Source: Paragyromitra xinjiangensis
Taxonomy: Eukaryota > Ascomycota > Pezizomycetes > Pezizales > Discinaceae
Direction of reading: 5' to 3'
Assembly (NCBI GenBank): GCA_038503065.1
Contig: JBCAMK010000017.1
Location: 186,001 to 250,000, forward strand
DNA length: 64,000 nucleotides
Positions 1,946-46,206 of this stretch are shown in pieces. Below the pieces are notes generated by a model that was not told the origin of the DNA, did not search any database, and saw nothing but the letters and a program-made list of their open reading frames with translations. A program made the position numbers and the translations under genes. Positions within the stretch are counted from its first letter, which is position 1. Every line of letters begins with the position of its first letter.

Positions 1946-4416
1946 CGGCGAATCTTCGATCGAACTTTGCGGGATAATGTATATCCTATGTATTGAGGCA
2001 AGGAATGGGGGCTGTAGTATTTTGGGTTAGGGTTCGTTTATTAATTGACGCTATACCGTGAGGGGTAACGAAACCCTCTGCTCACAGTGTAACGGAATAG
2101 GTCTCACAACCAGTGCAAGCAATGGTCCGGTCCGACTACAGTCGACTGCAGTCGACTGGAGCCAAGCCCGTCCAGTAAAGACTGGAAATTTTTTGAAAGG
2201 ACTGCCAAGTATTGTAGTCTTTTTTTCCAAGCCAGTCCGTCCAAAAAATTGACGGACTGCCAAGAAATCTAACAATAGTGTTATTTAACTTGAATACCCC
2301 GCTTTCTCAAGAGAAAATGTATCGCAGAATTCATCAAAATCATGGATGGCCTTATTGACCCACGTCTACTTTCTGCAAACTCTAGTTCAGAAAACCTACA
2401 TCAGCAAAAAAACGGATTGTCGCCCGGTCCGCCCAATGCATCAGGCGACCGGGGCGGTCGGGGCGGAATATAGCCCTTCCTAAGGTTGCACTTTTTGCCC
2501 TCTGCGCCCGAAGGCAGCCTTTGGGAGGTCGTTAGTCCTGACGACTCCTTTCACAACTGTTGAAGTAGCCTAGCCTCTGGATGGCTTTGCTTCAACATCA
2601 TTTCTCTAGAAGACCTTGACGACCTCCTACAGTCCGGACGCATCCTTCCTGGATTCAAATGTTTTGAAGATTATGGATGCTCATGATCGTGAGCTCGAGC
2701 TTTTGGGGGCATATTCAGATGTGTAGTAAATTGACTATTATTTATACGCTCTATTCTATCACTCTAAATACAAATCTTCGGCTGCCTCTCTCTGCTCCTT
2801 CCGCCCATCTATCCCTTCCCTTCCCTATCTTCCCTCCACTCACTTGACACCTCCCTTCCCCTTCTCCTTGTCGGCTCGTACGAGGTCGTCGGCAAGCTCT
2901 AATGGCAAACTCCTATTGTGTTTCCGCGCAGTTTTCCTCCGAGGCAGGGATTGCTGTTAGAATGGCAGCCGCCTCTTCAACATCATTTCTAGGGATTGAG
3001 CTGGAGCTTGACAGCTGAGCTCGCCGAGTCACCGACTGCTGGAGGGTCATCGATGAGCTTCTTTTGCGTAGCTCTAATATTGCCTTTAGTCGTCCTTGAT
3101 CCCCCCGGAAGGCAGCTTGCGACTCGATATCTGGGCTGACATCCTCCCGCTAATACTGTTAGCCAGCGTCACGTTGTAACGAGGAAGAATCTTACTAGAC
3201 TATCGATTTGGCGGCGGATATCATTTACTAGCATTTCCCGAACCTCGGCATCAAGGAACCTCAATGTATTGTACTGATGGTGCCAAGGATCTATCATCTT
3301 CTTGTTAGCAGAGGATACCGGCCTCCCAGAGGTCGTTCATAACTTACAGAGAGCGCTTTTGGTGTTGAAGTCCTTAGGGTCTGAATAGGCGCCTGTTTTC
3401 CAAGCATGCAGACAGTGATATATCATGGTTGCAGTCGTTGCAAGGAATATAATATTGATACTCCCGATAAAGCTTCTATCCGACCTCCCAAGAGCCTTCT
3501 TACCTTCGAAAAACTTGCCATATATCAAAGCAGGGATTTGGGGGGCTAGGAATCTACCCTCTCGGCTCTGCCAGCTTGTCAGCGGTCGTCATATACTAGT
3601 AGGAGTTTGTACTGACCTCATATGTATCAGGGTGACAGGTAAACCTATCATCATCTAGCAGATATTCGATCTCCCTCTGGTGCTCTTCCTCCTTTAGGTT
3701 TGTGAGGTTGTAGGCGCTCATCACGTTCCTTTTGACGTGAGCGAGGAATTGGGACCGTGCGCTCGATTGCTTTGCCCTTAGCTGAGAGCTGTTAGAATAC
3801 CCAATCAACGTCACGGAGGCCGGCAACGTACCAGGTCAACACACAATTTGTTGACAGGGCATACTACGCCTATATCCTTCTCAGCAGTTGCCCAGGCTTT
3901 TTTTGCCCATTTGGCCATCTCGATTGCGTCAGGGAATGGATGCTTGAAGTAGGTAAAAGAAGCAATATACAGCTTCGCGAGCTGACATCAGCAAAAAGGG
4001 ATGTCCGCCCGGGCGTATGGGCAAGCGCCCGGGCGAGCCTCCAAAATCCAGCACGCCCACCTGCGTCCAGCTGCGTCCAGCCGCCTCCGTACGTCTAGTA
4101 CGTTGGTACTATGGTACGCTATCCCGCCCAGCTCCGCCTGATGCACTCGTACGTCTGATACGCTGGTACTATGGTACGCCTACCCTCGCCCAATGCTCTC
4201 CTACGTCTGATACGCGCAGTTTATAATCACAAGAGATCACTCGACCATCCTTTATCAGGCTAAAACACAACGTTTAGTCTCCAAATCCTTGTTTATATAC
4301 AATATCTCGGGCACATAACGCAGTCCCGCTAACCCATCCCTGTCCAATCGAGATCTGCGACCCAGATCGTATTGCCCCGCACCCCGCGCCCCGCACCCCG
4401 CGCCCCATACCTAATA

Positions 4417-7400
4417 TCAGTATATCTCGTTGAAGGTATCCAAATCTATGGTGTTGTTGACGAACCAGCGCGTATTATCAGGCCCAGGCGATTCAGGTAC
4501 GAGGTGGGCCATACCCGTGATACTCTTGATATTGATAATCCATGTCTGGTCACTCGCGCTAGGGCGAGATACCCGTACCATCCCATGGATTGGGTCCACA
4601 TGGCCGCCTGAGTCAGGCCGCAATGGCTGCACCACTGCCAGAAGTAATGGCCTTTGTGTTGGATCCTGAAGTTTTAGAAAACGTATGACCCGAGCCGGTC
4701 GTCTGCCTCGTAGGGCTCCATACTGATCCTCCTGACCAAACTTGCACCAGGCCCAATCGTTTCGTGCCTCACGGCCCCAGAAGGATTCTCCTCCTGTTGC
4801 TCGAAGGATATGGACCACTGACTCGTCTCCTAGCCCGAGTCGGTGGACTGGTACATGGAGAGCGTTGAAAGCGGTCACTTTCCATAGCCCAATATTTGGT
4901 ACGCTGCGATCCGGACCAAATTCTCAACGGTAATACTGAACGAGGTACGCCTCCAGGGGAAGCCTCGCCCCAGGCAGGACGAATTCACATACAGGCACGG
5001 TTTCCCGTTCTGAGGCGATGCGCCGCCTAGCATTGATAGGTTCAGCTGTATCAGGGAATTGAGGATGTATGGTGGCACTGACTGGGGCGTTTGGGCTATC
5101 CCAAGGGTCTCGATCTTTCCTACGGCAGGCGCTAACTAGCCGATTGGTCTCTGGGGGCAGGAGATGTAGGACGTCTGCCATCTCGGTGGTACAGTGACCC
5201 TCACGCGCAAGCTGGATCAGATTTTGCTGGTGCATGGCTAGTCCGTACTCACAATTATACCCTGCTAGGATCTGAAGCGTAGCATCAACCCTATTCGTCC
5301 GACGGTATGGCTCTTTGATCTGATCCTTGTGGGCCGTTTCCCCCACCTCAGTCGAGTACTGAGAAATACCGCCATACCTGCATATCTGCTCCGAGAAGTG
5401 GGACAAAAGATGCATCTTGGGGAAGTTTAAGTGGGAGTGCTCACGGTACGCTTCAGCGACAGCCTCATCCAGTTCTAATCGTTGGTCTGCCTGGAGGCGT
5501 CGTTTTTTGGCCTGGGTCATGCCTTGCGTTGATCGGATCTCGGTCTCATGCCGTTCCTTCATAGTTTGACGTACGTGGGCCGCCAGGATATCCGAGGTCT
5601 TGCCCCCTTGGTACTTGAGGAAGACATCTTTGTGGGCATGAAACTGCTCGATATATCCATCCATATACGCTATAGTCTCGTCAGTATGAGACGGATACTG
5701 GGCCATTAGTACCCATCCAACGAGAGCCTTGACGCAGCGAAGTGCTTGACTAAATACCAGACGTTGAGCGTCATTTGCGGGGTTTTGCAGCGCCCTAGCC
5801 AAGGCAGGTAGGACGATCCTGCCAAAATTGCGCATCTCTTTGCCTTGCCATTGGGTCACCTCTCGATATGCCTTGCGAGGCGGTGTGAATCCAGAATAAG
5901 TCGGTATACTCTTCCAAATACTGTCGAAGTCGTCCAATCGCCCGAATTCTTGCAGGAACGGGCTGAGCCAATCCATCAGGTGCTTCAAAATACCCAAATA
6001 GACAACATGCAGCGTATCGGGCATGTGGAGATCGGAGGCATTGACGAAAGGGAGTCCCCAGAAGGGATTGCGCGCAGATCTGAGGCCGCACTGCTCGAAC
6101 CAGCCTTCGATCGTCGCTATTTGGCCACGTATGCCCCGAGTATTAGTATTAGTACTAGTATTGGTAGTAGGCTCTAGCATTTGCTGCAACCGATCATACT
6201 CGTCCATTTTGGCCTCATAGGCATCCTGAGTCCGACGGTATGTGGATCCAGGGTCTTTAATGTAGGTACCCAGATCCTCTTTTGGTATCTCGCACTTCGG
6301 GCACTGATTATGCTTGACGTTCTGGAGATTGCAGTGCTCCACATGGTCCGCCAGCCATGCGGCTAGTACGGGCCAGCATTCCCTTATCTTACCATCCGAA
6401 CTGTGCATGGTTATACTGTGGGTCGCATCTATACCACGCAGGGGGTCCATAATCGTCCGCATGACCTGGTAGAGGACCTCACAATTCCAGGCACGCTGTC
6501 GATCTTGGGCTGCCGCATTCCCTTTGAATTTGGGCGGTATGGGAAGTAGGGCGACACATACTTGGGCGCGATGCTGGGAGCTGTTGCGTACCCGCCTCGG
6601 AAGGTTGCCTATAGTCATATATATGGGCCATGCTTTCTTGTCTCCTGAGAAGTTAGTCAAATGAGTAGCATCAGACCCACAGATTACTGGGACGAGCGTC
6701 GCCCCAGGAGGCAGCTGGGACTGCATATCCCACCACCAATCCGCCGTATGGAGCTCAGAGTATAACCTATTACCATCTCCGTCGAACTCTTTCACTGGGG
6801 CGTAGACCATATGAGGCGCGTAGCAGCGCTGACGCATGAGATATTGGGCACAGGTGAGTATATCACGGTAGTAGAAGTGGATGATATCTCCCCGCTCTCC
6901 TGAGACCGACCCATGTTGCCACGGAGGTAAGGATTCTGAGCCAGGCATACGGTCAAGGTGCTGGTCCAAGGTGTGGGCGGACTGGAAAGTACGACGGGAC
7001 TGGGATGGCTTCCCGAGCCCAGCATTGAAGAAATCGTTGATCTTCTGCTTGGGTGTTTTCGACTCGATGAACCAGCGAGCCAGCCGCCATTCTTCTGCAT
7101 CCGAGAAAGGCGACCAAGGATCCCAATCGTCCGAGAGATGGTCTTCATACCCAGGTACCTCGCCCAATGGCGCCCCGCTAGCAGGCCAGTACTCAGGAGG
7201 ATAGACGCTATCACCGTCTGTTTCGGGCTCGTCTGAGCCCTCTATGGATTCAAGGTCTGAGTCTGAGTCTGGGTTTGCGTCCGAGCCAAAAGAATCAAGC
7301 AAATCCGAGTCTTGAGATGGCTCATATTCGATATCCTGATGGCAGCGAGCGAGGTGCGTATTGAAAGCTCCAGCCAAAGCATAGCGACGCGGGCAATGGG

Positions 7401-7422
7401 GGCATTTGGTCTCCTGAGGCAT
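4417..7422 (-). pseudogene. T1: Plavaka-type transposase with one in-frame stop
   Basis: About 1001 residues from MPQETKCPHC; an upstream in-frame ATG at 7515 exists, but 7422 aligns with the starts of T2 and T3. N-terminal C2H2 finger (C7, C10, H23, H28), an acidic region to about residue 110, then the Plavaka core: ELHTADWWWD, GSDATHLTNFSGDKKAWPIY (D251), PDTLHVVYLGILKHLMDW (D469), TQWQGKEMRNFGR, and YSTEVGETAHKDQIK (E692 or E695). D251, D469 and that Glu are my candidate catalytic triad. The C-terminal block ends in SITGMAHLVP and IDLDTFNEIY, as in T2 and T3. A TGA at 4924-4926 (residue 833) lies in frame; downstream codons remain open to the end. Unlike T2 and T3 it has no 51-bp intron after DWWWD. 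Confidence 0.88.
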
Positions 7423-8076
7423 ACCGTCTCTGCTAGTCGTGTCAGCCCTAGAGTCAAGATATATGTAGGGCACCGCATACCTGACTATTCTCGTGTAATC
7501 CCATGAATAGATCAAAAGAGGTGGTGATCTGAGGTGGTGATCTGAGGTGGTGTGGTTTGGTGTGGGGCAGTACCGGATTAGGCATGAGTTTGCGAGATCT
7601 TGGCGTCTTGGCCTTGGACGTCATCGCCTACTTAGGCAATTAGCGACGTCACCTTCCCCCTCAACCACACCAACACCGCTCACCACTCCTTTGTTTGCTC
7701 CCTTCGCCCAACGGCCCTCTATTTCCTTTGTTTCTCGTCCTATTCTCTTTGTTGTATTCTTTGACTCGGTACGGTAGAGGCTATTCCGCCAGCTGATCCT
7801 TCTCATACCAGAGGCGGGGGTGGTGGGATTGGGCGGGGGTGGTAGGTAGCAGTATGGCAGGCGACTGATGAGCATGTTGGAAAGGGCCCGGGCGCAAAAA
7901 GGAATATGGAGTGTTTGTTTTGATAGAATACGCCCTATATATGGGGCTCAGGCTGCCCTCCGCTCTCAGTCAGCTCCTTCACTCCTTCCTCTACCGCCTC
8001 AGGCTTGTTTGCTATCTCGTACGCTCCCTCGTACGCTTCCTTCTATACTGTCCGATCTAATCCTCAGCTCCTACCG
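7423..8076. promoter_or_regulatory. Divergent promoter region of T1 and B1
   Basis: 654 bp between the two divergent starts. A TATA-like CCTATATATGGGG lies near 7930, about 145 bp before the B1 start, on the B1 side. GC-rich repeats GGCGGGGGTGGTAGG lie near 7810-7850. The equivalent spacing is 648 bp in E2 and 548 bp in E3, so divergent transcription from one shared region is conserved. Confidence 0.5.
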
Positions 8077-9470
8077 ATGGCCCCAGGCAAAGCAACGCCC
8101 AAGAAAGATAAGGGGAAAGGAATCGCGGATCCTCTCGCTAAGGTTGTTAAGAAGGCTAAGACTAAGGCTAAGGCTAAGGCTAAACCAGCCAAACCTAAAG
8201 CTCCCGTATGGATACTGGGACTGTCAAAGGAGGAGAATGATGCCCTCGTGAGTCGCAGCGCCCAATCCTATACTGACTACGTATCTCTACTAGTACTAAT
8301 CGATCTTATAGGATAAAGCACGTCTCAAGATCAACGAGTCAAAGGCCATCTTGGGCAACATGAGCGCTGAGGCGTGGAAAACCTTTCGTACCGACATGAA
8401 GCAATACTACGCCACGAATAAGATCAGGAACAAGACTGCGGCTGGCGCTCCCGCTTGGGCAGCTGCTATGCAACATGCTCTGACGCTCGAGCCACTGGTC
8501 CAGTTTGCTGGGATATTTGGGAAAGGGGATGAGCAGGCTGCGGTACTCCAAGCAGCCATCAATACTTTGCTGACCGACGCCGCAAAGAATAAGGGCAATG
8601 CTGCTGTGCGGGCAGTACTCGCAGGGCCGACTACTCGGGCGCGGGCCAGAGCTGAAGAGGATGAGGGGGAGGATGGGGAGGAGGAGGATGAGGAGGATGA
8701 GGAGGAAGAAGAGGAGCTGGATATTGATACTAGGGAAATACAAGGTACAGCAAATCCTATCCTACTGCGGAGTATGATATTAACTCATCGGCGGCTTAGG
8801 TATATGTAGGGCGAATCGTCACGCATACTTTGGCCGACCCGTAGCCGTTAGCTACCACTGGCACGATGACTGCCGTATCGAGCAACCTCCAGCTGCAGGG
8901 GCTGGCGACGCAGCCGGGCCTGCTGGGGCAGCCGGGCCTGCTGGGGCAGCTGGGGCAGCTGGTGCAGCTCCACTTAGATCTTGCGCCCGATCGTTCACCC
9001 AACCTGCCTGGGTGCCCACTCAGGACAGCATACATATCCCATACATCGCGCACCTTCAATTGAGGTTGCCTACGTTTGATTATCTCCTGAAGGCGATACG
9101 TCGTCGCTATCCAAGCCAAATTAGGGATAGAGCAGAGTGGACGCCGCGTCAGATCTATGGGGCATTGAAAGGTCCCAATCGCTGGTTTGTGGTAGTAGAT
9201 ACGAACGAGCCGCTGAAGCCGTTCTGGGGCGACGTCGTTACCATCGCGGACGATGAGGACGTCCGCACCTGGCTGGCTGCGACCAAGGCTCTGGACGTCC
9301 TTCATCTCCTCGTCGTCTTCCATCAGCCCGACTACAAGGACGAGCAGACGCCACCCCCTTTGTATCGGACATACCTTGATGGTAATATATTCGACAATCT
9401 AGAGACTGATGAGGAGGATGAGGAGGATGAGGCGAGGGCTGACGTGCCGGCGGAGGCTGAGGGGAATTGA
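8077..9470 (+). CDS. B1: transposon protein B of E1 (function unknown)
   Basis: Three exons, 8077-8247, 8312-8744 and 8800-9470, giving 424 residues with all phases consistent. Introns are 64 and 55 bp with GTGAGT or GTACAG donors and ACTAAT/TTAACT branch sites. N-terminus is Lys/Ala-rich (a likely nuclear localisation stretch), then a helical region starting KAILGNMSAEAW that aligns with B2 and B3, an acidic Glu/Asp run, an Ala/Gly/Pro linker, a second conserved region (IYGALKGPNRWFVVV, then IADDEDVRTWLAATKA, then VLHLLVVFHQ), and an acidic C-terminus. I do not recognise the family. Its place beside a transposase and presence in all three elements suggest a role in transposition or its regulation. 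The start is the first ATG in the frame after the TATA-like site. Confidence 0.75.
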
Positions 9471-9479
9471 TGGGAGTCA

Positions 9480-10010
9480 GACTTGGGGGAAGTGTATTAC
9501 CGGGCAGCTTTGGTACGCTATCCTATCCCCGCCTTCAGCCTCTCGCAGTTGCTGACCCATCGGATATCCTATCACAGACGCGGGTATCAGTAGGAGGATA
9601 TTTCTTTGTTTTTATACCATTTCTTATCTCTGGTCGGCTCATTGTGTTTTGTTGGAGAGTATTATTAGGCAGCTTTGGTACGCTATCCTATCCTGCGCCT
9701 TCAGCCTCTTGCAGTTGCTGACCCATAGGATATCCTATCATAGGCGTAGGTACTAGGAGGATATTTCTTTGTTTTTATGCTATTTTTTATCTCTGGTCGG
9801 CTTGTGTTTTGTTGGAGACTTGGCGGAAGCGTATTATTAGGCAGCTTTGGTATACTACCCTATCTCCCGCCTTCAGCTTTTTGCAGCTGCTGACCCATCG
9901 GATATCCTATCACAGGCGCAGGTACTACTAGTAGGAGGATATCAGGTTCTTTGTTTTATACTATTTTTTATCTCTGGTCAGTTCGTTGTATTGGTCTAGT
10001 TGGTCGGGTT
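9480..10010. repeat. Three tandem units of about 170 bp between B1 and C1
   Basis: Units begin with GGCAGCTTTGGTACGCTATC near 9504, 9670 and 9841 (the third slightly altered). Each contains GCAGYTGCTGACCCATMGG and GGATATCCTATCA, then a T-rich stretch ending TATCTCTGGTC. Non-coding; may be 3-prime sequence of B1 or a protein-binding array. A TATAAACGCC near 10143 may serve C1. Confidence 0.75.
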
Positions 10011-10271
10011 AGCGGCCAGTCGGTATCTATAGCCTCACCTCGGAGCAAATAGCTTGCTCTCGTATGATGTCAGTGTATTAACACACTTTGACCGTATTAG
10101 CGTTCGTAGCAAATCAATGCTTTAGGCTTGCTCCAATTCTTCTATAAACGCCCCACCCCCCTGCGACCTAGGTCTGATCACCTCCATCCCTCGTACTCAC
10201 ACATTCAACCTACTCGACCTACCTAAGCACCCGCCCAAGCTATACTACAACTGCCCAATTGCCCAATCCTT

Positions 10272-12437
10272 ATGCCGCCCAAACGTAAGTCTCAGCGAGT
10301 GACTGGAACAGCTTCGGGCACTCGTAGTACTCGGCTCAGGCAAAGTCAAACGGATGGTATTCCCAGCACTTATCCGGACGAGCATGCCGGACCCAAGGCT
10401 CGCCTGCAATCTAAAAAGCGTATCGGCCCGACCCCTACCGTACCTGCTATCCCTGGTGGCCAATCTCAGCCACGTCCCAGCCCCAGAGAAAACTCATCTT
10501 CACAAACATCATTTGCTCGCCTCGAGTCCTCTCAGCAGCAGGAAAATCCACCTTTGGATAGCCAACATCCGGAGAACGAGCCACAGAATAGTCGAACTGC
10601 AGATAGCCCACGCCCAGAGAACGAGCTGCGGAATAGCCAGACTGCGGATAGCCAACCTCCAGGTACGACTAGCCAGTCGCAGGATAACCATCGTACAGGC
10701 CAGTCGGCTCCTACACATACACGTAACCTAGATATCGGTATGCAGCTGCAGGGAGATGCATTTCGTCGCCCAAAACCTACGCAAACAAATAGAGCAGCGC
10801 CTCAGGATCGATATACGAATAGGGCAGCGCCTCAGGATCGATATATGATACCCAGTTCCGAGGAATCAGACCCAGGCCTTAGGGATCATACCACACGCAG
10901 GACAAGAAGTATCCACCGATTTGAGGATACCCATATCGAAGTCCTACGAGAAGCTCAACGCCGTATCATCTATAGTACGTTATTCATCTGCCCCTTCCCT
11001 GGAGTTAACGAGACGAATACCATGGTCAAATGTGCTTGGGCAGAGGCTCAGGAAGCCTTGGACGTGCATCAGCAAGAACAAAAAATGACCTATTTGAAAT
11101 TAGGATCATGTTCTTACCTCTGTGACCTATTTGGCTCCTATTTGGACCTCTGTGGCCTCTGTGGCCTCTGCAGAGGAAAATATCAAAATTTCCTCGGAAA
11201 CCTCCACAGAGGAATGTTGACCTCTGCAGAGGCCACAGAGGCCAAATAGGAGCCAAATAGGCCACAGAGGTCAAATAGGCCACAGAGGAATGTCGTTTGT
11301 TTTTGCTGATGTGTATATTGCACCTAGTCCCTCACTGCAAGCGGCTAGTCAGGTACGTACTACAGTATATCCCACGATATACAGTCTTAGGCTAATAGCT
11401 TGAGGGCTTGGGCGTACTCTAGCTCCGCAGCTACCACCATCGCATACGATCCCAGCTTTACTCGATCTGCAAGGACCACATCCAAAACTACTACCAACTA
11501 AATCGTCTGCATTGTACTGAAGTATCGACTAGAGTACGATATCTACTAGAACTAGACCGTTTTCAATGCGACCCAGATCATTACCAAGTATGTACCGCGC
11601 CCAATATCTTCCCTAAGGCGAGCCGTGCTGCTGCTTACCCATACCCAGTCATACGGTTGGCGGTTTGGTGCGCCCCAGATACCTCGTCTGATTTGGAGGA
11701 AATACTTCTTTCGTTCGCAGTCTTTGGGATTGCAGGATTCAGGATTTGCCCAGCGAATCAACCCCGCATTCGTCTGCCTGGTATCTACAGCAATCTGCCA
11801 CGCCCTACGACTGTATCGGACAGGTAAGTACGTCCGAATCTCCAACTTTAGTAGGGAGAGCTGCAATGGTATGTGCTCTGCCCAATTCGGTACAGCATTG
11901 TTGGCCCGTGTACCTGACTAGTATTTACACTTAGCCCTATGGGAGCGGCAACTAAGTACGTGGAATACTTCATTTCCCACTCAAGAAGTCAGTGATCTAG
12001 TCCTAGATCGTATCTGCCGAAGAGTATTTGAACGGATCAAGGGCAAGGGCTTGCAGCCCCCTGATTTTGACGCCATCCAAGCCCTGCCAGATCCCGAGAT
12101 TGACTCTTTCACGGCGTCGCTTCGGGCAGAGGCTGCTGCCCACACCTCAGAGGCAGAGCAGAATCCCGCCGATCACAGGTGGGCAAGGCACGGCTCGAAC
12201 GAGGACTCAGACGAAGAACAGCAATATATTCCCGGACGTGGAAATCGTGTCCGATACGCACCTCCAGATCCGGATAGCGCTCAGGATGGGCCTGATATAC
12301 GCTCCGACCCATGGGACGACTCGGATAAGCTTTCAGATCCACCCAGCGAGGACGAGGACGAGGATGAGGGCGAGGGTGAGGATGAGGACGAAGACGAGGG
12401 TGAGGTCGAGGATGAGGTAGATGGAGAAGGTAGCTAG
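10272..12437 (+). pseudogene. C1: protein C of E1, DUF6532-like, split by MITE-A
   Basis: Predicted exons: 10272-11066 continuing at 11314-11352 after MITE-A, then 11423-11587, 11649-11868 and 11935-12437. Total 573 residues with all phases consistent. The first 230 residues are Ser/Gln/Pro-rich and low in complexity. Then CPFPGVNETNTMVKCAWAEA, a helical block ending YLLELDRFQCDPDHYQV, the block WRFGAPQIPRLIWRKYFF with LVSTAICHALRLYRTGKY, and an acidic tail. The LVSTAI..AL....TG pattern is what I remember of DUF6532, a fungal domain of unknown function. MITE-A puts a premature stop after residue 325, so the copy is probably non-functional. The third coding exon is 220 bp, exactly as in C3. 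Confidence 0.75.
11067..11311. mobile_element. MITE-A: 245-bp foldback element in C1
   Basis: Starts CATCAGCAAG, ends TTTTTGCTGATG, duplication TG at 11065-11066 and 11312-11313. The interior is a large imperfect palindrome built from CCTCTGTGGCCTATTTG and CCTCTGCAGAGG. It is nearly identical to MITE-B (20541-20788) in the opposite orientation. Removing it plus TG restores the C1 frame (DVYIAPSPSLQAAS). Confidence 0.95.
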
Positions 12438-12710
12438 GACGAGGACGAGGTTGAGGACGAGGGTGAGGTTGAGGATGAGGACAAGGGTGAGGTCGAGGAT
12501 GAGGATAAGGGTGAGGTCGAGGATGAGGATAAGGGTGAGGTCGAGGATGAGGATGAGGGTGAGGGTGAGGTCGAGGATGAGGATGAGGGTGAAGTTGAGG
12601 ATGAGGATGAGGATGAGGGTGAAGTTGAGGATGAGGATGAGGATGAGGGTGAAGTTGAGGATGAGGATGAGGGTGAGGTCGAGGATGAGGATGATGGGCA
12701 AGGTGGCTAG
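12438..12710. repeat. GAGGAY/GAGGGT minisatellite after the C1 stop
   Basis: The repeat encoding the acidic C-terminus of C1 continues for about 270 bp past its TAG. Units are variants of GAGGTCGAGGATGAGGATGAGG. The stop may be recent, the ancestral protein having had a longer acidic tail. The long Leu/Ile open frame on the other strand is an artefact of the repeat. Confidence 0.8.
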
Positions 12711-36085: not shown

Positions 36086-36447
36086 GAAGAAACGTTGCTT
36101 AACGAAAGAAAGAAAAAAGAGAACAGAACAACGGAAACCCATCGCTTATATACCCCACTTTTCCGTTCTATGACTAAGTCATACCACATCCCTTTTATCG
36201 GGTACCACCGAAACCTAAAGAAAGAAAACGAAACCATACACTACCCCGATCGCAACCAAACCCCAATCACATGCCCATCCTAATCTTCCAACTTCATTTC
36301 ATCCGTGAAACTCTGAAGGAATGTGGCCTTCCAGAAGATCAGGATGCACCTGAAGACCAAAACGCACTGGGTGACAATTAATTTTTTTGCTGATGACGGT
36401 GTGGGCGAGTGTGTAGGAGACTCTGCCAGTTTGACACAGAGATTTGA

Positions 36448-37224: not shown

Positions 37225-37591
37225 CATCAGTAAAAAAAAATTCTCGCCCACTAGGTACATATTCCGCCCTACCGCCTAGGCCGCCTAGGAGATTTGCCTG
37301 CGTCTTTAGTTCTCCTGAACGACCTCTCTGCGTCCGGCACCCTCCCTGGAGAGCCTGCTTATATCACATCACCGCCCGGAAATACTCTCCCCATACTTCA
37401 TTTCTAGGAGGTGAAACGCCCTCCTGGTGCTTCGATTTGCCCCTATTGCCCTCATGGCGGGGCTGCTTTTGATTTTGATGCACCTGGAAGATATCGCTAC
37501 TCCTGCATAATCCAATTTATTCAGCTACTTATAATACGGTGACGACCTCTAGCAGGTCGGTAAAAGGCTTTGTACATCGCTACTCCACATC

Positions 37592-40500
37592 CTAATAGAT
37601 ATTGTTGAACGTTTCTAGGTCTATTCTACTGTTTACCAACCATTGTTCCTCTTCCTCGTCTGGAATCAGGTGCGCCATGCCTATAATTGAAGCCACGCTA
37701 ATAACCCATTCATCACTATATGGTGTGTTTACTTTGCGTGAAGCCACCCTCACCAAGCTGCTGTCGGACTCTAGGTGTCCGGCGCCCTCCACCCGGAGCA
37801 TTCTTACCAGTGCTAAACGATGACTGTATCCGGTTGTAGGGTCCTGCAGCTTGAATAAACATCTCAATTGACCAGGTAAACGCCCACGTAAGGCACCGAA
37901 TTGAGTCTCGTCACCTACAGCCACCCATACCCAATCATTTCTTGGCGCAGCACCTCGAAATCGCTCCTGAATCGTACAACGAAGGCGATGTATGGTATAT
38001 ATATCAGTTTCCTGGAATTTGAGCACCGGCAGTTGAAGCTGTTTGAATCGTTCGGCTGGATAATGTAGCAACTTCCGTATATTGGTTGTCAGCTTGTGGG
38101 GGTCCGGCAAGCTTTTGTTGCTGTAGTCTACCACCTTTTGCACAAGTCGATCCTCCTGGTCCCCAAGCTCATAAGCCACATCTTTCAGTGACTTCGTCCT
38201 TTTAGTGCTGACGAGGCCCCGTAGCACCCGAGGTGGCCGGTATTCTGACCGAATATCGAGCTCTGCCAGAGAAGGCATCTCTTTTTGTAGAAGGTCTATC
38301 ACCTCCTTCCCTAGGTCCTCTGCTGACTTCTCATGAGCTGCCTCTCGAACTGACACCACATGCATAGATATTGTGTGGCGGCGGGAATAGTGCTCGAGAA
38401 TTTGCTTTGTGGCGTTGTGTTTATTGGAGGCACGGTATCCAACCTTAATTTGCTGTTGGTGCGAGGCTTCGCCGACTTCTGTGGAGTAGCTGGGTATATT
38501 GCCAAATCGCCTGATATGGGACGTGAAGTGAGTCAAAAGGTGTATTTTGATGAAGTTGAAATGGGATTCTTGGCGGTAGATATCTTGCAACTGCTCAGAC
38601 CTCTCTAGTCGATCCTCCACAGCTGCCTTGCGCTTTTTGTTTGCCGTACGCTGAGCAGTCAACAGTGCCTTCTCTTGTGTTAGTCGCAGTACTGTATCTG
38701 CCTGCTTTGCTTTAGCAGTCACCTGCTTCGACCTGCGAAACTCTAGAAAGACGTCTTTATGCTTGTGAAACCTTGTCAAATAATCCTCCATATATCCAAG
38801 GGTTTGCTCCGTATGGCTGCGATACTGAGCCATTAAGTGGAAGTCTAGAAGGGCTTGGGTACAGTTGAGGGCTTCTTTGAACGCCGGCCTCTCTGAAGCC
38901 GTCGGCTTCCTCAGAGCAACGGTCAACACTGCTAGTAGAAACCGCCTGAGATTCCGCATTTCTTTTCCTTGCCATTGAGTAACCTCCCGATAGGCCTTTT
39001 TAGGGATAGTAATACCAGTATACGGGGGAATAGACTTCCATGCTCTGTCGAATTGATCGAGGCGATTATGCTTTTTTAGTAAGCCCTGTATCCACTCCAT
39101 TAAATGCTTCAATAAGCCGAGATAGATAGTATGAAGAAGATCCGGTTTCCAGATCTCTTCCGGCCGGACTCTGGGAAGTCGCCAGAAGCTATTCATTGCT
39201 GCCTTTAGACCTCTCTCCTGAAGCCAATCTAAATTCTCGATATTGCCTGTGTCCCCAAATTGCTGCGCCTTGGCCTTATACTCTTCGTGATTGCGGGTGT
39301 TGAAGGGCAAAATAGTTAGCTGGCCTAGATTCTCAGCGTCAATCTCACACACAGGGCAACAGTTATTCTTCATGTGCTGCAGGGTGACGTGCTCCAGGTG
39401 GTCGGCAATCCAGCCACAGAGTATTGGAAAGCAGAATCGCATTGCCCATCAGCGCACGACAGCTCAATGCCGTTCGCTGCCGGCTCGTAGAGAGCTGACA
39501 GCACCTTATCCATGACCAAATCAAGGATCACTCGATTCCTGACTCTTTGAGCTTCGGCTTCTTTCGTTTTCAGCTTGCCGAACTTAGGGGGGATGGGAAG
39601 AAGTGCCAGAAGCACCATGGCCATTGCTGACGTTTTGTTTCGCACTGTGGATTTGATATTGCCTATCGTCAGATAGATAGGCCAAGCCTTTTTATCTCCA
39701 GAGAAGTTAGTGAGGTGGGTTTGGTCTGATGCGCAAAGAACTGGAACGACTGTGGAGCCAGAAGGAAGAGTCTCCTATAACCAATTAGCAAGAAGCGCCG
39801 GCTCCTGAGAGGTCGCAGGCGTTACCTGTAAATCCCACCACCAATCAGCTGTATGGAGCTCTGAATACATGCGCTCGCCAGCAAGATTGAGCTCACGTAT
39901 AGGAGCATAAACCATATCTTTTGAATAAGCTGCTTGGCTAATTAAATATCGAATACAGACCATTGGATCGCGATGTGCCAGCACGAAGGACTCTCCATCC
40001 ACTACCTCCTCCATAAACTCCCAACTGGGCGCCCCTAAAGTTGTGGGTAGGTTCTCGATGACCTTGAAAAGGGTATAGGCGGACCGATAGGAGCCGGCAC
40101 CTTGATATAGACCTTTCTTGAAGTAATCTTCAATGCCAGTCTTCGTCGTTTTGGTGTCAATAAACCATTTTGCTAGGTGGAAATCATATGAGGTGTGGAA
40201 CGGAAATATAGGATCGTCAAGCAGTCTTTTCTGAGCCTCCTGAAAGCCAGCTGCTTCGCCAGCCGACCTCCCAGCGTCCGGAAAGGAGGTGATAGCAGTT
40301 GTCGAGGCACGAAGCGTAGAATCAGCCTCATTCTCTTCATCAGATGCTCCAACAGGCTCTTCGTTCGAGTCGTACTCTGGTGGCATATCCAGAGTATTCG
40401 TAGGGCCCCAATTCTCGTCAGTCTCTTCTATATCATCCTCCCACTCGAAGGAAGTAGCCGACGACTGCTGACCGGCTGATGGATTGCCGAATAAGCGTGG

Positions 40501-40602
40501 GAAATACTGCTTGCTCAGCAGCTCATGCTCATTCTTGAGATGAGTCTCCCAGGCTGTAGAATAAAGATAGGTGTGGCGACAGAAAGGGCAAACCTGAGGC
40601 AT
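37592..40602 (-). pseudogene. T3: Plavaka-type transposase with a 1-bp deletion
   Basis: Starts MPQVCPFCRHTY at 40602 (C2H2 finger), then an acidic stretch, YDFHLAKWFIDTKTTKTGIE, MYSELHTADWWWDLQ, a 51-bp intron (39775-39825, ending TTGCTAATTGGTTATAG), and SDQTHLTNFSGDKKAWPIYL. Near 39442 one base is missing relative to T2 (the frame shifts between CADGQ and RFCFPILCGW). The rest is open: PDLLHTIYLGLLKHLMEW, TQWQGKEMRNLRRF, YSTEVGEASHQQQIK, and a C-terminus ending DLETFNNIY. With the base restored it would have 987 codons. A sequencing error at this site is possible; if so, T3 would be intact. Confidence 0.88.
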
Positions 40603-41150
40603 AATCAGCTATATAATACTGCTGCAGCCGCGTAGAGGTCGGAGAGCAATTGAGAAGGTAGAAGTGCTGATAGGGGAGCTGATAGAAGTGCTGATAGATG
40701 TGGTATTAGGCGAGGATCGTGAGGATCACGAGAATAGGGTGATGTTGAGGGGTATGACTAAGCGACTGCAGAGCCGCACAACACCAGCGCCATCAGGATC
40801 CTCAATCTCTACGACCACTCTATAATATTAGAAAAGTGCTGCCAAGTGTTAGACTAGCCATAGAAGCTCCCAGCCGACCTCCTAGAGGTCGGCTCATTCA
40901 TATAGTGTATTTGTAGGCTTTTCCGCGGAATGACATCATCCTAGCCATGAGGCTTGGCAATCGCTAGACCTCCTGCTCTTTCAACCTCACCTCTTTCTTT
41001 CAACGCTCTCCTCCACACCCTCCTCCACACCCCCCCCTCCACCACTCTATCAGCGTTTCTTTGTTTGAGGCTTCGAGATACAGCCTCCTTCACTCTCTTT
41101 ATGCTCCCTGTTTAATGCCATTCGCTGTAGTAATATATAAACCTCGCAAA
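40603..41150. promoter_or_regulatory. Divergent promoter region of T3 and B3
   Basis: 548 bp. It holds the best palindrome of the E2/E3 type, GCCGACCTCCTAGAGGTCGG at 40873-40893 (8-bp perfect arms), and a shorter GAGGTCGG near 40634. Being at the shared promoter, the palindrome is a candidate operator. Confidence 0.45.
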
Positions 41151-42824
41151 ATGGCATCCTCCGACCAAACACCAAGCAAACCTCCCGCTTTGTGGGAAAC
41201 AGTCAATAAGTCAGATCCCAATACCAGGCTACCCAATACTCCACCCAAAACTTCGCCGACTCCAGCGGGGCCGCAGGCAGCTCCCACTAGCCCACAGTAC
41301 CCTCTGCAGAATCCATACGGCTTTACTCCCTCCCCCACACAAGGTCGCTCGCCAGACCTACCCCGCACAAAGGACTTTATTCCCCCACCAGACTCTTCGC
41401 CAGACTCTTCGCGGCTCTCTTCACCGCAACTTACCTCAACGGACAATAATACTCACAGGCCGACCTCCCATAGGCCGACCAGGACCCGCAGAAAAATGCC
41501 TCCGCGTGTTAAGGCTGCTGCAGCCCCCGCTCCTCAAGCTAGATCTACTGAAATGTCAGCCACAGAGTTCAAAGCTGTGTTGGGCTTCGATGCAAGCAAC
41601 AATCAAGCCTATATGATTGTTCGAGATGACATCAGCTCATTTTGCATCCAGAACGGTATTACCGGCATTGACAGCCCTGGCAGAGAAGCTTGGGCGACCT
41701 GTGAGGAGCGGGCAATAAACCACAAGTACCTCTCTCGCTTCCGCCAGGCCTGGAATGGTGTTGGGCCTGCGGAAAATACTGCTCTTGTGCAGAAAGCCGT
41801 CAAAAACCTATGCATTGACTCCATCAAGAAGAAGAACGCGGCTAGGGCCCTGGAAGAGCGGCAAATGGCAGATAACGGTGATACTGATGGGGCTGCCACC
41901 GGCCCTTCTGAGGTCGGCGCTGCTCCTGCTGCACCTACCCCCCCAACTAAATCTCTTGTCATCCGTATCGTTGATCCTGACGATGTTGGTGTGCACCGTC
42001 CGGAGGATTCGTCGACTAAGGGGTCAGGATATATGTGGGACCATCATACGTATATGTATCGCAAGTTGACGACCTTCACGCAGCCGGTGCAGCTCCATGA
42101 TATCCTCAAATACGCCATGAAGCATGCGCCTCACCACCATCCCCGCGCAGTATGGGGTGCCCTTGTTCCCATCCCCGAGAGTGGAGAGTTGCGGCCTGAA
42201 GAAGAGTCCCTTCTCACAGAAGACAATGAGGTGGAGGCCTGGCTGGGGGCGACGACTGATCCCCGCCCAGTGTGCACCATAATCCTCCATCGCGAAGCAG
42301 CTGCTGGTGGGGAATCCCCTCCTCAGACCCCGCCGCCCTCAGGCGAGCCGGCACATATCTCCAAGCGTTACTTCGATGCTTTGGATGAGGATTTCCCGGA
42401 GGAGTCGTCGGATGATGAGCGCCCAGTAAGGAAGAAGTTTAAACCCCTCCCTAGGACGGATAGGGGCTTTCAAGCGCGCGAGAGGAAAATCCGACGCCAA
42501 ATTGCTCATCAGCAGACTATGCTAGAAACAACAAAGGCCCAGCACCGACTGATTGTCACCGATGCTATCTTCTCCGACGAAGAAGGGTTTACTGACGAGT
42601 ACATGTCGGCTCCTGACAGGGTGGCAGCCAGAGCTGCAGTGAAAGCTGCCAGGGCCCGGACTAAGGCAGAGAAGGCAAAAAAGGTTGCTGATGCGGCGGA
42701 TAAAGCTGCTGCTGCTGCTAAGGGCGCTGGTGGAGGTAAGAAGGGCAACGATGACGAAGATGAGGTGAGCAGTGACAACAGTGACGATAATGTGGAGGAC
42801 GGTAATGAGGATGGGGAGGAGTAG
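41151..42824 (+). CDS. B3: transposon protein B of E3 (function unknown)
   Basis: One exon, 557 residues from MASSDQTPSK; an upstream in-frame ATG at 41061 gives 587, and the internal MPPRVK (41496) aligns with the B2 start. N-terminal 115 residues are Pro/Ser/Thr-rich. Then a conserved helical region (TEFKAVLGFDASNNQAYMIV, GIDSPGREAW, AINHKYLSRF, SIKKKNAARA), a second region (VIRIVDPDDVG, VWGALVPIPES, LLTEDNEVEAWLGATTD, IILHR), then ISKRYFDAL and RKKFKPLPRTDRGFQARERK, and a coiled-coil-like Ala/Lys stretch ending in an acidic tail. I recognise no known domain. The central basic segment followed by acid resembles DNA-associated proteins; a nuclear role is inferred. Confidence 0.8.
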   Translation: MASSDQTPSKPPALWETVNKSDPNTRLPNTPPKTSPTPAGPQAAPTSPQYPLQNPYGFTPSPTQGRSPDLPRTKDFIPPPDSSPDSSRLSSPQLTSTDNNTHRPTSHRPTRTRRKMPPRVKAAAAPAPQARSTEMSATEFKAVLGFDASNNQAYMIVRDDISSFCIQNGITGIDSPGREAWATCEERAINHKYLSRFRQAWNGVGPAENTALVQKAVKNLCIDSIKKKNAARALEERQMADNGDTDGAATGPSEVGAAPAAPTPPTKSLVIRIVDPDDVGVHRPEDSSTKGSGYMWDHHTYMYRKLTTFTQPVQLHDILKYAMKHAPHHHPRAVWGALVPIPESGELRPEEESLLTEDNEVEAWLGATTDPRPVCTIILHREAAAGGESPPQTPPPSGEPAHISKRYFDALDEDFPEESSDDERPVRKKFKPLPRTDRGFQARERKIRRQIAHQQTMLETTKAQHRLIVTDAIFSDEEGFTDEYMSAPDRVAARAAVKAARARTKAEKAKKVADAADKAAAAAKGAGGGKKGNDDEDEVSSDNSDDNVEDGNEDGEE

Positions 42825-43918
42825 TTGCTGGCCTTCCCCAGGTCGGCGCAGTACGGTGGGAGTCTTTTTTTTATTTGTTCTCGCAAGGTATATTTCAGTA
42901 TTTTTAGGGAAACTGGGTGGGTGGGTGCCAGCTTGCTAGGAGCCGGTAAGGTGGTGCGGGGGGGGGCGTTTTTTTTCCTCTTTTCCTTCGACGCTGGGTT
43001 TGGGTATTTCTATCCGTGGAAGCAAGCTTTCTATTACTCGCTGGTAAGCTACCCCCTTCCTTTGTCAACGGAGTCACGGTGATCAATTAATGACTCGGGC
43101 TGGGAATTAGTATACCTTTTGCCGACCTCTGAGAGGCCGCACCGTACCTGTGAATATCATTATTACTAATTTTGTATCTATTACCCCTTTTCCTCGTTTA
43201 TTTGTGCTATTTTTCTATCTCTTAGTCGCAGTTTATCCTGTATTTGTTGGTAAGTCATCCTCTCCCATGTTGACTTAGTAGCGACGACGAGAAGCTGATT
43301 GTGGTTTTGGTATAGCTCGTGCCGGCCTGTGGGAGGTGGGCTTGTATTATTATCATCATTAGTCTTGACTTTAGCTGTTGTACTATTTCTTGGATGCGGT
43401 CTACACATTACCCCCTGGTATGACATCTTTCCCTGCCTTTTGATGAATTTAATGTGATTGATTGTTGATTCTCGCTAGGAATGGCGTGCGCCGACTCTAG
43501 AGAAGTCGGCATGTATCATTATAATCATTTATTGCAATTATTCTACCTCGATTTTGTTGGCGCAGGATATCTGTTATTTGCTAGCAAGCGATTCACCACA
43601 GTTCATGATTTTGTGGAGGTTGATTGCTAAGTTAGACGTGGACCACGAACGACATTCGCCGGCCTCCTAGAGGTTGACACAGACCTTCTTTCCTTATCTA
43701 ATTTCGGGGAACCTGCCGTTACTGTAACTATCGTTTAGGTGTGCCACCCCAAAAGTCATAGCGCGTTCCCATAACGGCAATGTTTTAGGTTAGCCGTGCC
43801 GTGTCAACTGATTTCTTCGCCCCTGACTATAATTCTGCTCCAACTCCCAGCAGGCTGTCATCAACTTCTCAGAGTCCGGCAATCAACGTTCACAAATCCT
43901 CTATCTCCTACTCACAAA
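42825..43918. other. E3 non-coding region between B3 and C3
   Basis: No gene seen. At least four palindromes of the GACCTCNNGAGGTC type: 43121-43140, 43323-43341 (imperfect), 43489-43510 and 43658-43678. Otherwise AT-rich. Confidence 0.7.
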
Positions 43919-45610
43919 ATGGCAAAAAAGAATGATACTAACGATCGAAGTAAGGTTTCCAGGACTAGGCAATCTAATCTAACGAACTGCCCTCCGCCTC
44001 AACGCCGAGTTCCTACAAAGGCAACGACTGCCAAAAAGGGTATATACCACGAGGTGGAGCAGCAGGAGTACGAAGAGGAAGATGTAGAGGAGGATTATGA
44101 GTATGAAGAGGAGGAGGAGGAGGAGGAGGAGGAGGAGGAGGAAGATGTAGAGTACAATACGGAGGATGGCGAGGAATTGTCGGACCCTCAGGGTCCGGTG
44201 GCTCCTTCTCTCCAGTTGCAACCCAAAAAGACCACCGCAAAACACAGGGAAATACTGCAAGCTGACAGGATCCGTCGAGAGCTCCAGCTTCGTACGGTAT
44301 GATATCACTTCTATTCAAAAGAAGAGGCTAATTGTTGATCAAACAGGGATTTACCACACCTCGACCATCGTCAACGCCTACAGCGAGTAAGCCAATGACG
44401 AACGCTGTCAGGTTGGCATCGAGACCCTACAGACCTTCCTCAGCTGTCCAGCCCTTGCCTGTTGATGTGTGGCGGAATCGGAAGTCAAGAAGCTATACTA
44501 AACTGAATCCTGGCCTGATTTCTTTAGTTCAATGTGCGAGTCAATATATATCTTCTTACACCTACTTCAGGGAGCCTTTTCCCGATGTGATTACGCAGGC
44601 CGAGTGGTATGCGGAAGCTTGGGCGGATGCTCAGAGAGCTTGCAAATTAGAGACACTAATCGATAAGGAAAGCCTAAGTTTGGTACTGATACTCCCCCGA
44701 CCCCTCTGAGGTTGGCAAGAAATGCTGACAAGCGACAGCTAAGAGCCAAGCAATCGAGCACACGTTCCCATTACTTATCTACAGTGAAAGGGGCGGTTCT
44801 TTCGCTCTATGACCTACAAGGGCTTGATATGGCGACAATGTCGGAGAAAGTCTGCTATTTGCTCGACATGGATAGGTTCGCGTGTAAGCTGTATGAGGTA
44901 AGAAGGTCTCTCCGATCTTGTGACGACTGCTGACAGGTCGGCAGAGCCTTGATGGCAGATTTCTTGCTCCACAAATACCGATGATGATCCACAAGAAGTT
45001 TTTCGACAGCAAGAGAGCGATAGGCCAAAAAGACAAGCATTTCCTTGATAGTATCAACTCGTGTTTGATTGCCCTGACGACAACCATGATATATCATTGC
45101 CTGAAGGCGTGGGAAACTGGGCTCTACGAGGAGCCTAAGGACTTCAACTCAAATAACTCCATAGGTAGGTCCTCGCCGACCTCAGTCAAGTCGGCGTCAG
45201 CGGCTAATAAACAGGGCAGCGATTTGGCATAGGCAAATCAATACATGGGATAAACTAACTTCCGACAACCAAGAAATGCTGCTGGAGGATATTATTGAGC
45301 AAATTAGAGAGGTATGCCACCTCTATTACTTCGCGTGGCTGCAGTAACTAATAGTATTTAGATGACTCCTCAGCCTGATAAGCATGTGCGTGAGTCGCAG
45401 GCCGGATTTGAGACCAATCAGCAACGCCTAGGCGTTGTGCTACAGCTAAGGAAGCGCAGGTCGTCGACTCTACAGGGGCCGGAGCCAATTCACCGATGTC
45501 AGGATACCGAGCTTCCTGCCCCTTCCGCCCCCGATTTAGAAATTGCGCATATCCTTGCTAATCTTCCGGCGTCGGAGGGTGGAGACAACGGGGGTGATGA
45601 GACAGAATGA
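43919..45610 (+). CDS. C3: protein C of E3, DUF6532-like, intact
   Basis: Six exons: 43919-44296, 44347-44682, 44739-44897, 44945-45164, 45220-45311 and 45362-45610, giving 477 residues with all phases consistent. N-terminus basic, then a Glu run, PKKTTAKHREILQADRIRREL, a linker, CASQYISSYTYFREPFPDVI with EAWADAQRACKLE, LRAKQSSTRSHYLSTVKGAV, YLLDMDRFACKLYEV, GRFLAPQIPMMIHKKFFDSK, INSCLIALTTTMIYHCLKAWETG, and INTWDKLTSDNQEMLLED; the C-terminus has VVLQLRKRRSS. The region YLL.DRF through IAL..TMI..L..W.TG looks like DUF6532, remembered from basidiomycete proteins of unknown function. Exon 4 is 220 bp, as in C1. It shares strand with B3, 1.1 kb apart. Confidence 0.85.
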
Positions 45611-46206
45611 GCCGCTGCCGGCTTTAGAGCGCTCGGCATCAGCTGCGAGGAGAACAATTTGAGGGGGGTTCAGAGTATTGGAGGCACATTGGGCGGGGGT
45701 GGTGAGCATCCCGCCGACTGCAGGAGGGTCGGCGGGAGGTTGAAAGAAGGGAGCCTTATTGTAGTAGTAGCAGTAGTGGTCGTGGTAGCGGGTAGTAGTA
45801 GCAATAGCAATCAATAATCCATATCCAATTTATATCCATTCAGAAACACAAATACCCTCCAGAGGAGTTAAAATATGGTGATATTCAGCCCGAAGCACGG
45901 CTTTCCTTGAGAGGAGAGTATCTGCCGCAGGGAGATCAGAATTAGAAGCCGACCTGCCAGAAGGCAAGCCCCACCCGAACGCCAGCAGGTCGGCACCAAC
46001 CCTACCAGAGAGGTTGCGCGCTGCCAGGCGACAACGGACGAAACGATATCTTCAGGAGGCAAAGGCACTAGAATTGCAACGTCCGCGAGGATAGGGAGAC
46101 TTCGAGGAGGCAAAAGACGCAGCAGCAACCTAACAGAAGGGTAACATTCCGCCCGACCGCTCCGGCCTCCAGGCGGCCGGGGCGGCTATATCAATTTTTA
46201 CTGATG
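45611..46206. other. E3 right subterminal region
   Basis: Non-coding; palindromes GCCGACTGCAGGAGGGTCGG (45713-45733) and GCCGACCTGCCAGAAGG (45948-), and a CGGCCTCCAGGCGGCCGG near 46163. Confidence 0.65.

Follow-up and report, generated by a model that had tools for sequence, protein, structure and literature searches.

The window, a stretch of 64,000 nucleotides of the Paragyromitra xinjiangensis genome, holds Plavaka-type transposons in which a transposase gene (T) stands beside two further genes, termed B and C. The locus raises the question of whether B and C belong to the transposon and, if so, what they do for it.

Element structure and the transposase

Our analysis revealed three elements, E1, E2 and E3, together with smaller insertions:

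2399-24668: E2, an older Plavaka element, target duplication TA/TA, with E1 and three smaller elements nested in it
3986-13292: E1, a CATCAG-terminated Plavaka element recognized by its termini and target duplication GA/GA, sitting in the C gene of E2
11067-11311: 245-bp CATCAG element that splits the C gene of E1
13902-15853: nested non-autonomous CATCAG element in E2, at or just upstream of the C start, duplication TC/TC
17313-18773: nested non-autonomous CATCAG element within B of E2, TC/TC
20541-20788: nested non-autonomous CATCAG element within T of E2, TC/TC
23787-24347, plus strand: repeats of E2 (families D5 and D15), in units of 131-148 bp with variants of the dispersed word described below
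37225-46206: E3, a CATCAG-terminated Plavaka element, target duplication TG/TG

As an earlier note on this DNA had claimed, E1, E2 and E3 share one plan, with T divergent from B and C downstream of B, and all end in CATCAG plus an A-run flanked by 2-bp duplications. The same note had described three 9-kb elements, which does not hold for E2: it spans 2399-24668 with E1 inside and is not a 9-kb neighbour. E2 is a wreck broken by E1 and three smaller CATCAG elements, and these nested copies supply clean empty sites. An uninterrupted relative of E2 (C2:2815672) served as reference for the four insertions, whose joined flanks aligned with it without gaps over 400 of 400 bp, at 99.75% for E1 and at 99.5%, 96% and 99% for the elements at 13902-15853, 17313-18773 and 20541-20788, respectively. 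For the 245-bp element (left edge set 6 bp early), identity of the joined flanks was 96.3% across 406 columns, with gaps at 6 positions. The 2-bp duplications and the four empty-site matches establish that the unit moves whole.

The transposase genes are as follows:

4417-7620, minus strand: T of E1, in adjacent frames 4924-7620 (containing the start codon) and 4417-4923, with PF18759
20510-23725, plus strand: T region of E2, start approximate, split by the nested element at 20541-20788, PF18759 at C17:207230-208231
37592-40602, minus strand: T of E3, in frames 39775-40608, 39370-39774 and 37592-39448, PF18759 at C17:225089-226089

PF18759 matched T of E1 with 256.5 bits (cut-off 26.3), and T of E3 does not lie in a single open frame. 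Read by eye, the N-terminus of E1 T is C2H2-like. A protein search with T found 88 relatives, the best named ones in Morchella, Geopyxis and Tuber; the statement that Plavaka occurs mainly in basidiomycetes is therefore unfit for the P. xinjiangensis genome. Iyer and colleagues reportedly devoted a 2014 PNAS paper to KDZ and Plavaka.

All three elements are PlavakaB-type transposons. Their termini read 5'-CATCA..TGATG-3', their target duplications GA, TA and TG, accompanied by empty-site matches, agree with the 2 or 3 bp of that group, and the E1 T translation contains CPKC and HLLSH, which by eye fit CxxC and Hx3-4H, the motifs that PlavakaB has between its catalytic residues. In the available part of its description, PlavakaB likewise combines a Plavaka transposase carrying CxxC and HxxxH with CATCA..TGATG termini and 2-bp duplications (Kojima 2025, PMC12730594). 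That part reports TET/JBP cargo in only some families, where it is not required, and mentions no B/C pair (PMC12730594), whereas in the present elements proteins of the DUF6532 and Tri-helical families belong to the unit. TET/JBP is not supported as the accessory gene here: each of the four Tet_JBP matches in the genome (two over the cut-off) is more than 70 kb away from the nearest Plavaka transposase match. One of them, C12:824328, lies 9 kb from a DUF6532 locus that has no T.

Genes B and C as parts of the element

The genes that accompany T are the following:

8089-9467, plus strand: B of E1, exons approximately 8089-8248, 8312-8737 and 8802-9467 (by eye), a Tri-helical and then a predicted PB1-like domain
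10272-12437, plus strand: C of E1, split by 11067-11311, end approximate, DUF6532 at 11664-11861 (C17:197664-197861, 29 bits)
16887-19669, minus strand: B of E2 (C17:202905-205693), frames 18755-19669 and 16887-17327, split by 17313-18773
13294-13901, minus strand: first part of C of E2, continuing leftward past E1 at 3985
3358-3564, minus strand: remainder of C of E2, a DUF6532 match (C17:189358-189564)
41151-42824, plus strand: B of E3, 557 aa, one exon, 58 genome matches
43919-45613, plus strand: C of E3, 474 aa, DUF6532, six exons (43919-44296, 44347-44682, 44739-44897, 44945-45168, 45233-45311 and 45362-45613, the last including the stop and a few bases more)

The exon set of E3 C was recovered in a copy of 80% identity, and its residues 194-362 matched PF20149 (DUF6532) at 3.5e-25 (89.5 bits, cut-off 24). 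In B of E1 the Tri-helical family (PF24465) scored 27.4 bits against a cut-off of 27 (C17:194342-194587); 6 of its 11 genome matches were above the cut-off, E3 being under it (21.9-25.1). B thus combines the Tri-helical domain with a predicted PB1-like oligomerisation fold, the latter on a model of E3 residues 116-401 (mean pLDDT 62) built from four pieces of the window. A Foldseek search with this model gave no match with an E-value below 0.01, and a Pfam search of B gave no PB1 match. A full-length fold from the single sequence was set aside (mean pLDDT 43.5), as was myozenin as a relative of solved structure, the sole sequence match (alignment A1) having an E-value of 1.6.

Between E1 and E2/E3, T agrees at 40-42% over the aligned parts; B of E2 and B of E3 agree at 53-56%, and the second domain of E1 B agrees with those of E2/E3 at 25-26%, which is weakly significant (E 0.002 and 0.15). 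The earlier claim of considerably differing transposases thus holds for E1 against E2/E3, and B has diverged no less than T. Protein searches beyond this genome returned none of the 7994 best candidates scored for B at E 0.001, where low complexity may have crowded the candidates, and no match among 577 candidates for C residues 150-400. As the search with T finds its 88 relatives, fungal proteins were covered, among which B and C may have escaped annotation. Plavaka and DUF6532 are both named among the additional domains of two Ganoderma species in an excerpt of PMC8955403.

Alternatively, B and C could be passengers, or genes of the host that were caught in the neighbourhood of transposons. 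In the P. xinjiangensis genome, a Plavaka transposase stands no more than 5 kb from 59 of 67 B loci; 57 of these loci are divergent to it, and 42 have C downstream. Of 82 C loci, 58 have a transposase at a distance of at most 10 kb, where uniform placement would give 4.3%. The vicinity to Plavaka transposases foreseen in the earlier note is therefore borne out, and isolated host genes are rejected for this genome. Compatible with passengers are the 8 of 67 B loci without T within 5 kb and the 19 of 82 C loci that lack both a T at up to 10 kb and a B at up to 8 kb (63 have at least one of the two).

Selection was assessed for B in E3, the N-terminal part of E2 and seven of ten loci (L041 is E3; the partial L046 and L047 were omitted). 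Against relatives of 70-85%, E3 gave dN/dS of 0.27-0.36 for B and 0.24 for C, and in the E1 type the exons of B and the first exon of C gave 0.14-0.31 against the C8 copy; out-of-frame T as a control gave 0.80-1.10 in nine of ten pairs and 0.60 in one. Values were higher in close pairs, namely 0.94 for B of E3 versus C11, 0.51-0.63 in the E2-type B trio, and 0.55 (B exon) and 0.62 (C exon) for E1 versus C20. CpG decay is visible among close copies. Among diverged copies, purifying selection acts on B and C, as had been anticipated, and among very close ones both evolve near neutrally. Position, orientation and selection establish B and C as standing parts of the unit, as the earlier note had held. 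The 57 divergent loci among the 59 with a near T, the dN/dS below 1 between diverged copies and the movement of the whole unit into E2 all argue against passengers, which are exceedingly improbable; that T, B and C form a three-gene unit is practically certain.

A dispersed word in non-coding DNA

Elements of the E2/E3 type carry a dispersed word, GCCGACCTC, frequently in dyad form:

40873-40893: perfect dyad GCCGACCTC-N3-GAGGTCGGC, between T and B of E3
37541, 38883, 39163, 43321, 43658, 44696, 45175 and 45713: starts of the other E3 dyads (at most 2 mismatches per arm)

E3 has nine dyads versus 0.20 in shuffles. Genome-wide, dyads with up to 2 mismatches number 28, and all 28 are found no further than 6 kb from the genes of these elements, with 0 outside Plavaka neighbourhoods. 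The sites of E3 spread over the element, their distance to the closer end ranging from 220 to 4296 bp, and favour non-coding DNA; end-confined, TnpA-like sites are thus unsupported in E3. Thirteen of 50 T-C intervals were read, nine in contig order and four picked by kinship to E1 or E3. In the copies read, the word occupies introns and intergenic DNA, and genes less often, and it is also found at non-homologous places in relatives with saturated silent sites. Dyads were counted in eight of the 13 intervals (C1:2014073, C6:584117, C19:154512, C5:1267770 and C1:3354907 omitted), and private words were surveyed, as bins versus shuffles, in 11 (C1:2014073 and C6:584117 omitted, as was E2). Other sub-families have words of their own that differ from GCCGACCTC. 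Private words in non-coding element DNA, a VANDAL trait, are present in the E2/E3 type and unseen in the E1 type, no clear word being found in E1, its relatives C20 and C8, or C6:1292586 (11-12 bins; shuffle maxima 11-12). Some E2 word sites fall within tandem units, and the word found in C5 occurs in short tandem runs.

Word arrays might arise as a by-product of repeat growth or turnover inside elements, with no reader at all. The tandem arrangements just mentioned and the wordless E1-type elements would suit this, and so would the single sites: in an 88% relative, conservation of non-coding E3 sites shows no excess over matched 9-mers (0.841 vs 0.802, P=0.245), 5 of 14 still being the word. 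However, turnover accounts poorly for the dyad form and non-coding bias, or for the recurrence of one word at non-homologous places between lineages whose silent sites are saturated, and we regard it as quite improbable. An element-encoded protein probably reads the word.

The putative reader and its purpose

Because T, B and C diverge together, the word is not assignable to a single protein. B and/or C are somewhat favoured over T as its reader. The alternative, in which the N-terminal zinc finger of T or host factors read the word and B and C do something else, draws on the C2H2-like terminus seen by eye and on this joint divergence between families. Yet it would need several host factors, one per private word, and 0 of the 28 dyads lie outside Plavaka neighbourhoods; we consider it unlikely.

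According to the mechanism that we propose, T would cut and paste the whole 9-kb unit, by chemistry expected from its family, and B, perhaps with C, may bind the private word of its own sub-family. B would multimerise via the predicted PB1-like domain and coat its own kind of element, and the coating could stop CpG methylation, to which the decay footprint in the copies would be due, from closing the element. By analogy with plant VANDALs, B with or without C would thus be a VANC-like, sequence-specific anti-silencer. Anti-silencing rather than strand transfer as the purpose is possible, and we put it forward tentatively; with similar reserve, a word-reading B/C system whose likeliest purpose is anti-silencing is our reading of the whole.

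PIF/Harbinger elements pair the transposase with a gene for a Myb-like DNA-binding partner that carries it into the nucleus. They resemble our elements in having such a partner gene, and differ in the transposase, in the 3-bp duplication and in having no known third gene. B and C may similarly be transposition co-factors, B folding the element into a transposition complex via the dyads or carrying T into the nucleus, with no anti-silencing involved. The divergent layout of T and its partner and the predicted PB1-like fold, suited to architectural multimers, are in line with this, as is CACTA TnpA, which binds subterminal repeats according to excerpts of PMC8195511. In the same excerpts, CACTA En/Spm (TnpA, TnpD) shares with our elements a transposase of the broad CMCT clade, a second protein and repeated binding sites (PMC8195511). 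En/Spm has CAC..GTG ends and 3-bp duplications, whereas CATCAG and 2 bp are found here, with divergent genes, and TnpA sites are subterminal (PMC8195511, in part) while our word is element-wide. This spread in E3, together with the preference for non-coding DNA, which VANC21 sites share in the available part of PMC5735166, speaks against co-factors, which appear rather unlikely.

The VANDAL transposase is of the Mutator type. Arabidopsis VANDAL/VANC, in the portions available of PMC5735166 and PMC10398659, resembles the B/C reading in joining a transposase to an accessory protein and in words of 8-9 bp that sit in non-coding DNA of the element, are specific to a family and change between families. 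In contrast, the present T is a Plavaka transposase in a fungus, the word forms dyads, and B has a predicted PB1-like domain; VANC activity comprises binding and demethylation, both of which are putative for B and C.

Bolder, and on balance doubtful, is the idea that Plavaka evolved anti-silencing independently of plant VANDALs, in that B and C read the dyad and shield the element from CpG methylation, sub-families arise by joint change of protein and word, and fungal DUF6532 and Tri-helical genes are largely transposon genes. We found no account of function in the literature on DUF6532 and Tri-helical; both families now gain a home and a testable role, and DUF6532 gene counts in fungal genomes may in part be transposon counts. 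Family-private, dispersed, binding-site-like words thus occur in a transposon that is fungal and not of the VANDAL kind, so that repeated evolution of sequence-specific anti-silencing becomes directly testable. Helpers reading a private tag, if true, could show how such DNA escapes host silencing.

Element map and insertion history

E1, E2 and E3, the three CATCAG-terminated PlavakaB-type transposons of the window, have one gene plan in common: the Plavaka transposase T (PF18759) is divergent from B (a Tri-helical and predicted PB1-like protein), and C (a DUF6532 protein, PF20149) lies downstream of B. The earlier note had assigned this plan to each of the three elements, at 9 kb in total apiece; the plan, the CATCAG termini and the 2-bp duplications held, but E2 is a nest with E1 inside it. 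The genome covered was 48.2 Mb in 22 contigs, with the window at C17:186001-250000.

2399-24668: E2, duplication TA/TA, holding E1 and three non-autonomous CATCAG elements
3986-13292: E1, duplication GA/GA, within the C gene of E2
11067-11311: 245-bp CATCAG element splitting C of E1
13902-15853: nested non-autonomous CATCAG element, TC/TC, at or just upstream of the C start of E2
17313-18773: nested non-autonomous CATCAG element, TC/TC, in B of E2
20541-20788: nested non-autonomous CATCAG element, TC/TC, in T of E2
37225-46206: E3, duplication TG/TG

The flanks of E1 and of the three other elements nested in E2 were joined, with a single duplication copy omitted, and aligned to the uninterrupted relative C2:2815672. 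All four alignments were gapless over 400/400 bp (99.75, 99.5, 96 and 99% identity), which shows that each insertion duplicated 2 bp of its target and that the genes T, B and C entered E2 together as one piece. A flank test for 11067-11311, with the left edge set 6 bp early, aligned 406 columns at 96.3%, six of them gap positions. This element and 20541-20788 are inverted copies of about 250 bp, 98% alike over 245 bp. In two other nested elements, related arrays built on a short GAATTGACTGCT-like unit stand in inverted orientation to each other (14673-15417 and 17715-18291).

Other mobile DNA is also present in the window. A further CATCAG terminus pair with an AC/AC duplication (28492-36395) surrounds frames on the minus strand, one of which has both endonuclease and reverse transcriptase domains; it is read as a non-LTR element either inside, or mobilised with, Plavaka-type ends. 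A hAT transposase remnant with the C-terminal dimerisation domain was found at 26496-28408, and PIF1-like helicase domains in minus-strand frames at 60055-61505, perhaps a Helitron remnant.

Association of B and C with the Plavaka transposase

All PlavakaB features tested were found, save the optional TET/JBP gene. TET/JBP has four matches in the genome, two over the cut-off, and none of the four lies within 70 kb of any Plavaka transposase match in genome coordinates. A weak match under the cut-off, at C12:824328, is 9 kb from a DUF6532 locus without T at C12:833689, the two together spanning C12:824328-833907. The closest named relatives of T are from Morchella, followed by Geopyxis and Tuber, which would make the host probably a pezizomycete near the morels, although a mobile gene can mislead on this. 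Plavaka was reportedly named in a 2014 paper. Kojima 2025 (PMC12730594) describes how Plavaka elements end, the duplications they make and their TET/JBP cargo, and the portions of that article covered do not mention the B/C pair. None being found in the literature searched, the pair is apparently undescribed with Plavaka.

Genome-wide, at least 125 Plavaka matches merged into at least 99 T loci, at least 88 DUF6532 matches into at least 82 C loci, and three B searches into at least 67 B loci, all lower bounds built from the best-scoring candidates only. The earlier proposal that B and C go with Plavaka was borne out within this genome. In these lower-bound sets, 57 of the 67 B loci are divergent to T at ≤5 kb (two are near T in another orientation and eight farther), with C within 6 kb downstream in 42 of the 57; 58 of the 82 C loci lie ≤10 kb from T (4.3% expected under uniform placement), 49 of them divergent. 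On contigs whose length is known, 48 of 57 B loci fit the plan, against a mean of 0.6 and a maximum of 4 under random placement (2000 trials). A fixed gene order and orientation is more than clustering of transposons by itself would yield. Among the 99 or more T loci, 62 have B at ≤5 kb and 76 have B at ≤5 kb or C at ≤10 kb; the remaining 23 may be truncated copies or have diverged too far. Five B-C pairs have no T match within 13 kb (C1:2608063-2610926, C1:3486138-3488552, C16:1280360-1286030, C2:2799599-2803367 and C19:141572-144887), being either truncated copies or T-less units.

Purifying selection on B and C across copies, for which the earlier note proposed a dN/dS test, was found between diverged copies. 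Pairwise Nei-Gojobori dN/dS between E3 and copies named after their contigs was 0.24 for C (C1:1656601) and 0.34, 0.36 and 0.27 for B (C1, C18, C1b), with T at 0.34 (main frame) and 0.22 (first exon) in the E3-C1 pair; E1 against C8 gave 0.18 for T, 0.14 and 0.27 for B exons and 0.31 for the first C exon. Out-of-frame T controls gave 0.80-1.10 in nine of ten pairs and 0.60 in one. The signal was weaker or near-neutral in young pairs, as expected because their divergence mostly post-dates insertion: E3 against C11, a 97-99% copy, gave 0.94 for B, 0.53 for the T main frame and 0.28 for C. Further values were 0.50 for B between C1 and C18, 0.51-0.63 in an E2-type B trio, 0.46, 0.47 and 0.82 for the B N-terminus of E2 against three relatives, and 0.55 (B exon), 0.62 (C exon) and 0.23 (T) for E1 against C20. 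Where dS exceeded about 1.7, the pair was not counted as evidence of selection strength.

Private words and dyads

Thirteen element sequences were searched for words, short sequences dispersed through an element, defined as 9-mers (≤1 mismatch) that recur in many 150-bp bins (20 shuffles each). Nine carry a word, five different ones overall: GCCGACCTC, as such or shifted, in 17-25 of some 60 bins (E3, two further elements of its type and one of E2 type), forms of GCATCCTC in 23 bins each (C2:1576780, C2:2874448) and, in stretches with uncertain boundaries, ACTCTGACA in 20 bins (C5 element, in short tandem runs), TAGGGCAGA in 17 (C19:154512) and GAGAGCTCT in 16 (C1:3354907). Shuffles of these sequences never exceeded 13 bins. 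No clear word was found in E1, its relatives C20 and C8, or C6:1292586 (11-12 bins, shuffle maxima 11-12); four control stretches gave 8-11 bins against maxima of 10-12, one (11) exceeding its own by one.

The E2/E3-type word forms dyads, ideally GCCGACCTC-N3-GAGGTCGGC, numbering 9-12 in each of five elements against 0-1 in six other elements and four controls. At ≤3 mismatches the genome holds 184, against 18 for the reversed pattern. Among the best 50 of the 184, all 28 with ≤2 mismatches and 20 of 22 with three fall in the 3.7% of the genome that is ≤6 kb away from T, B or C loci. Twelve C loci are >20 kb from T: three have an upstream B and another has an E3-type dyad at 18 bp, which accounts for four of the twelve.

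E3 and the E2-type element have their word in common despite saturated silent sites in T (dS 2.5 in the main frame, 1.7 in the first exon), and only 3 of 21 E3 sites are at a homologous place (7 of 21 in still-alignable DNA); descent alone hardly explains the shared word. Half-sites of E3 are non-coding in 14 of 21 cases although 68% of E3 is coding (P=0.001). Single non-coding sites showed no excess conservation in an 88% relative (0.841 versus 0.802 in matched controls, P=0.245), where 5 of 14 still read as the word, so that selection, if any, would act on word density rather than individual sites.

CpG decay and likeness to VANDAL

Compared with their closest copies on other contigs, E1, E2 and E3 show a strong excess of C-to-T-type differences that is specific to CpG, roughly 6 to 45 times the level in other C contexts. 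Three close pairs have 78-85 per thousand sites at CpG and 2-15 at CpA, CpC and CpT; a fourth (78% identity) shows little contrast (148 versus 113-122). The excess in close pairs is the footprint of methylated-CpG decay, and C5-methylase domain matches occur at three places in the genome; the elements have thus probably been methylated.

The nearest working analogue to these three-gene elements is VANDAL/VANC (PMC5735166, PMC10398659). According to the 2017 paper (PMC5735166), VANC21 binds a 9-base word that lies in the non-coding DNA of its own element, VANC6 targets carry other words, and targets have grown by tandem repeats. The VANDAL transposase differs from T; what the two systems have in common is how words and accessory genes are laid out. 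An anti-silencer encoded by the element, as B and/or C may be if they read the word, would oppose such methylation.
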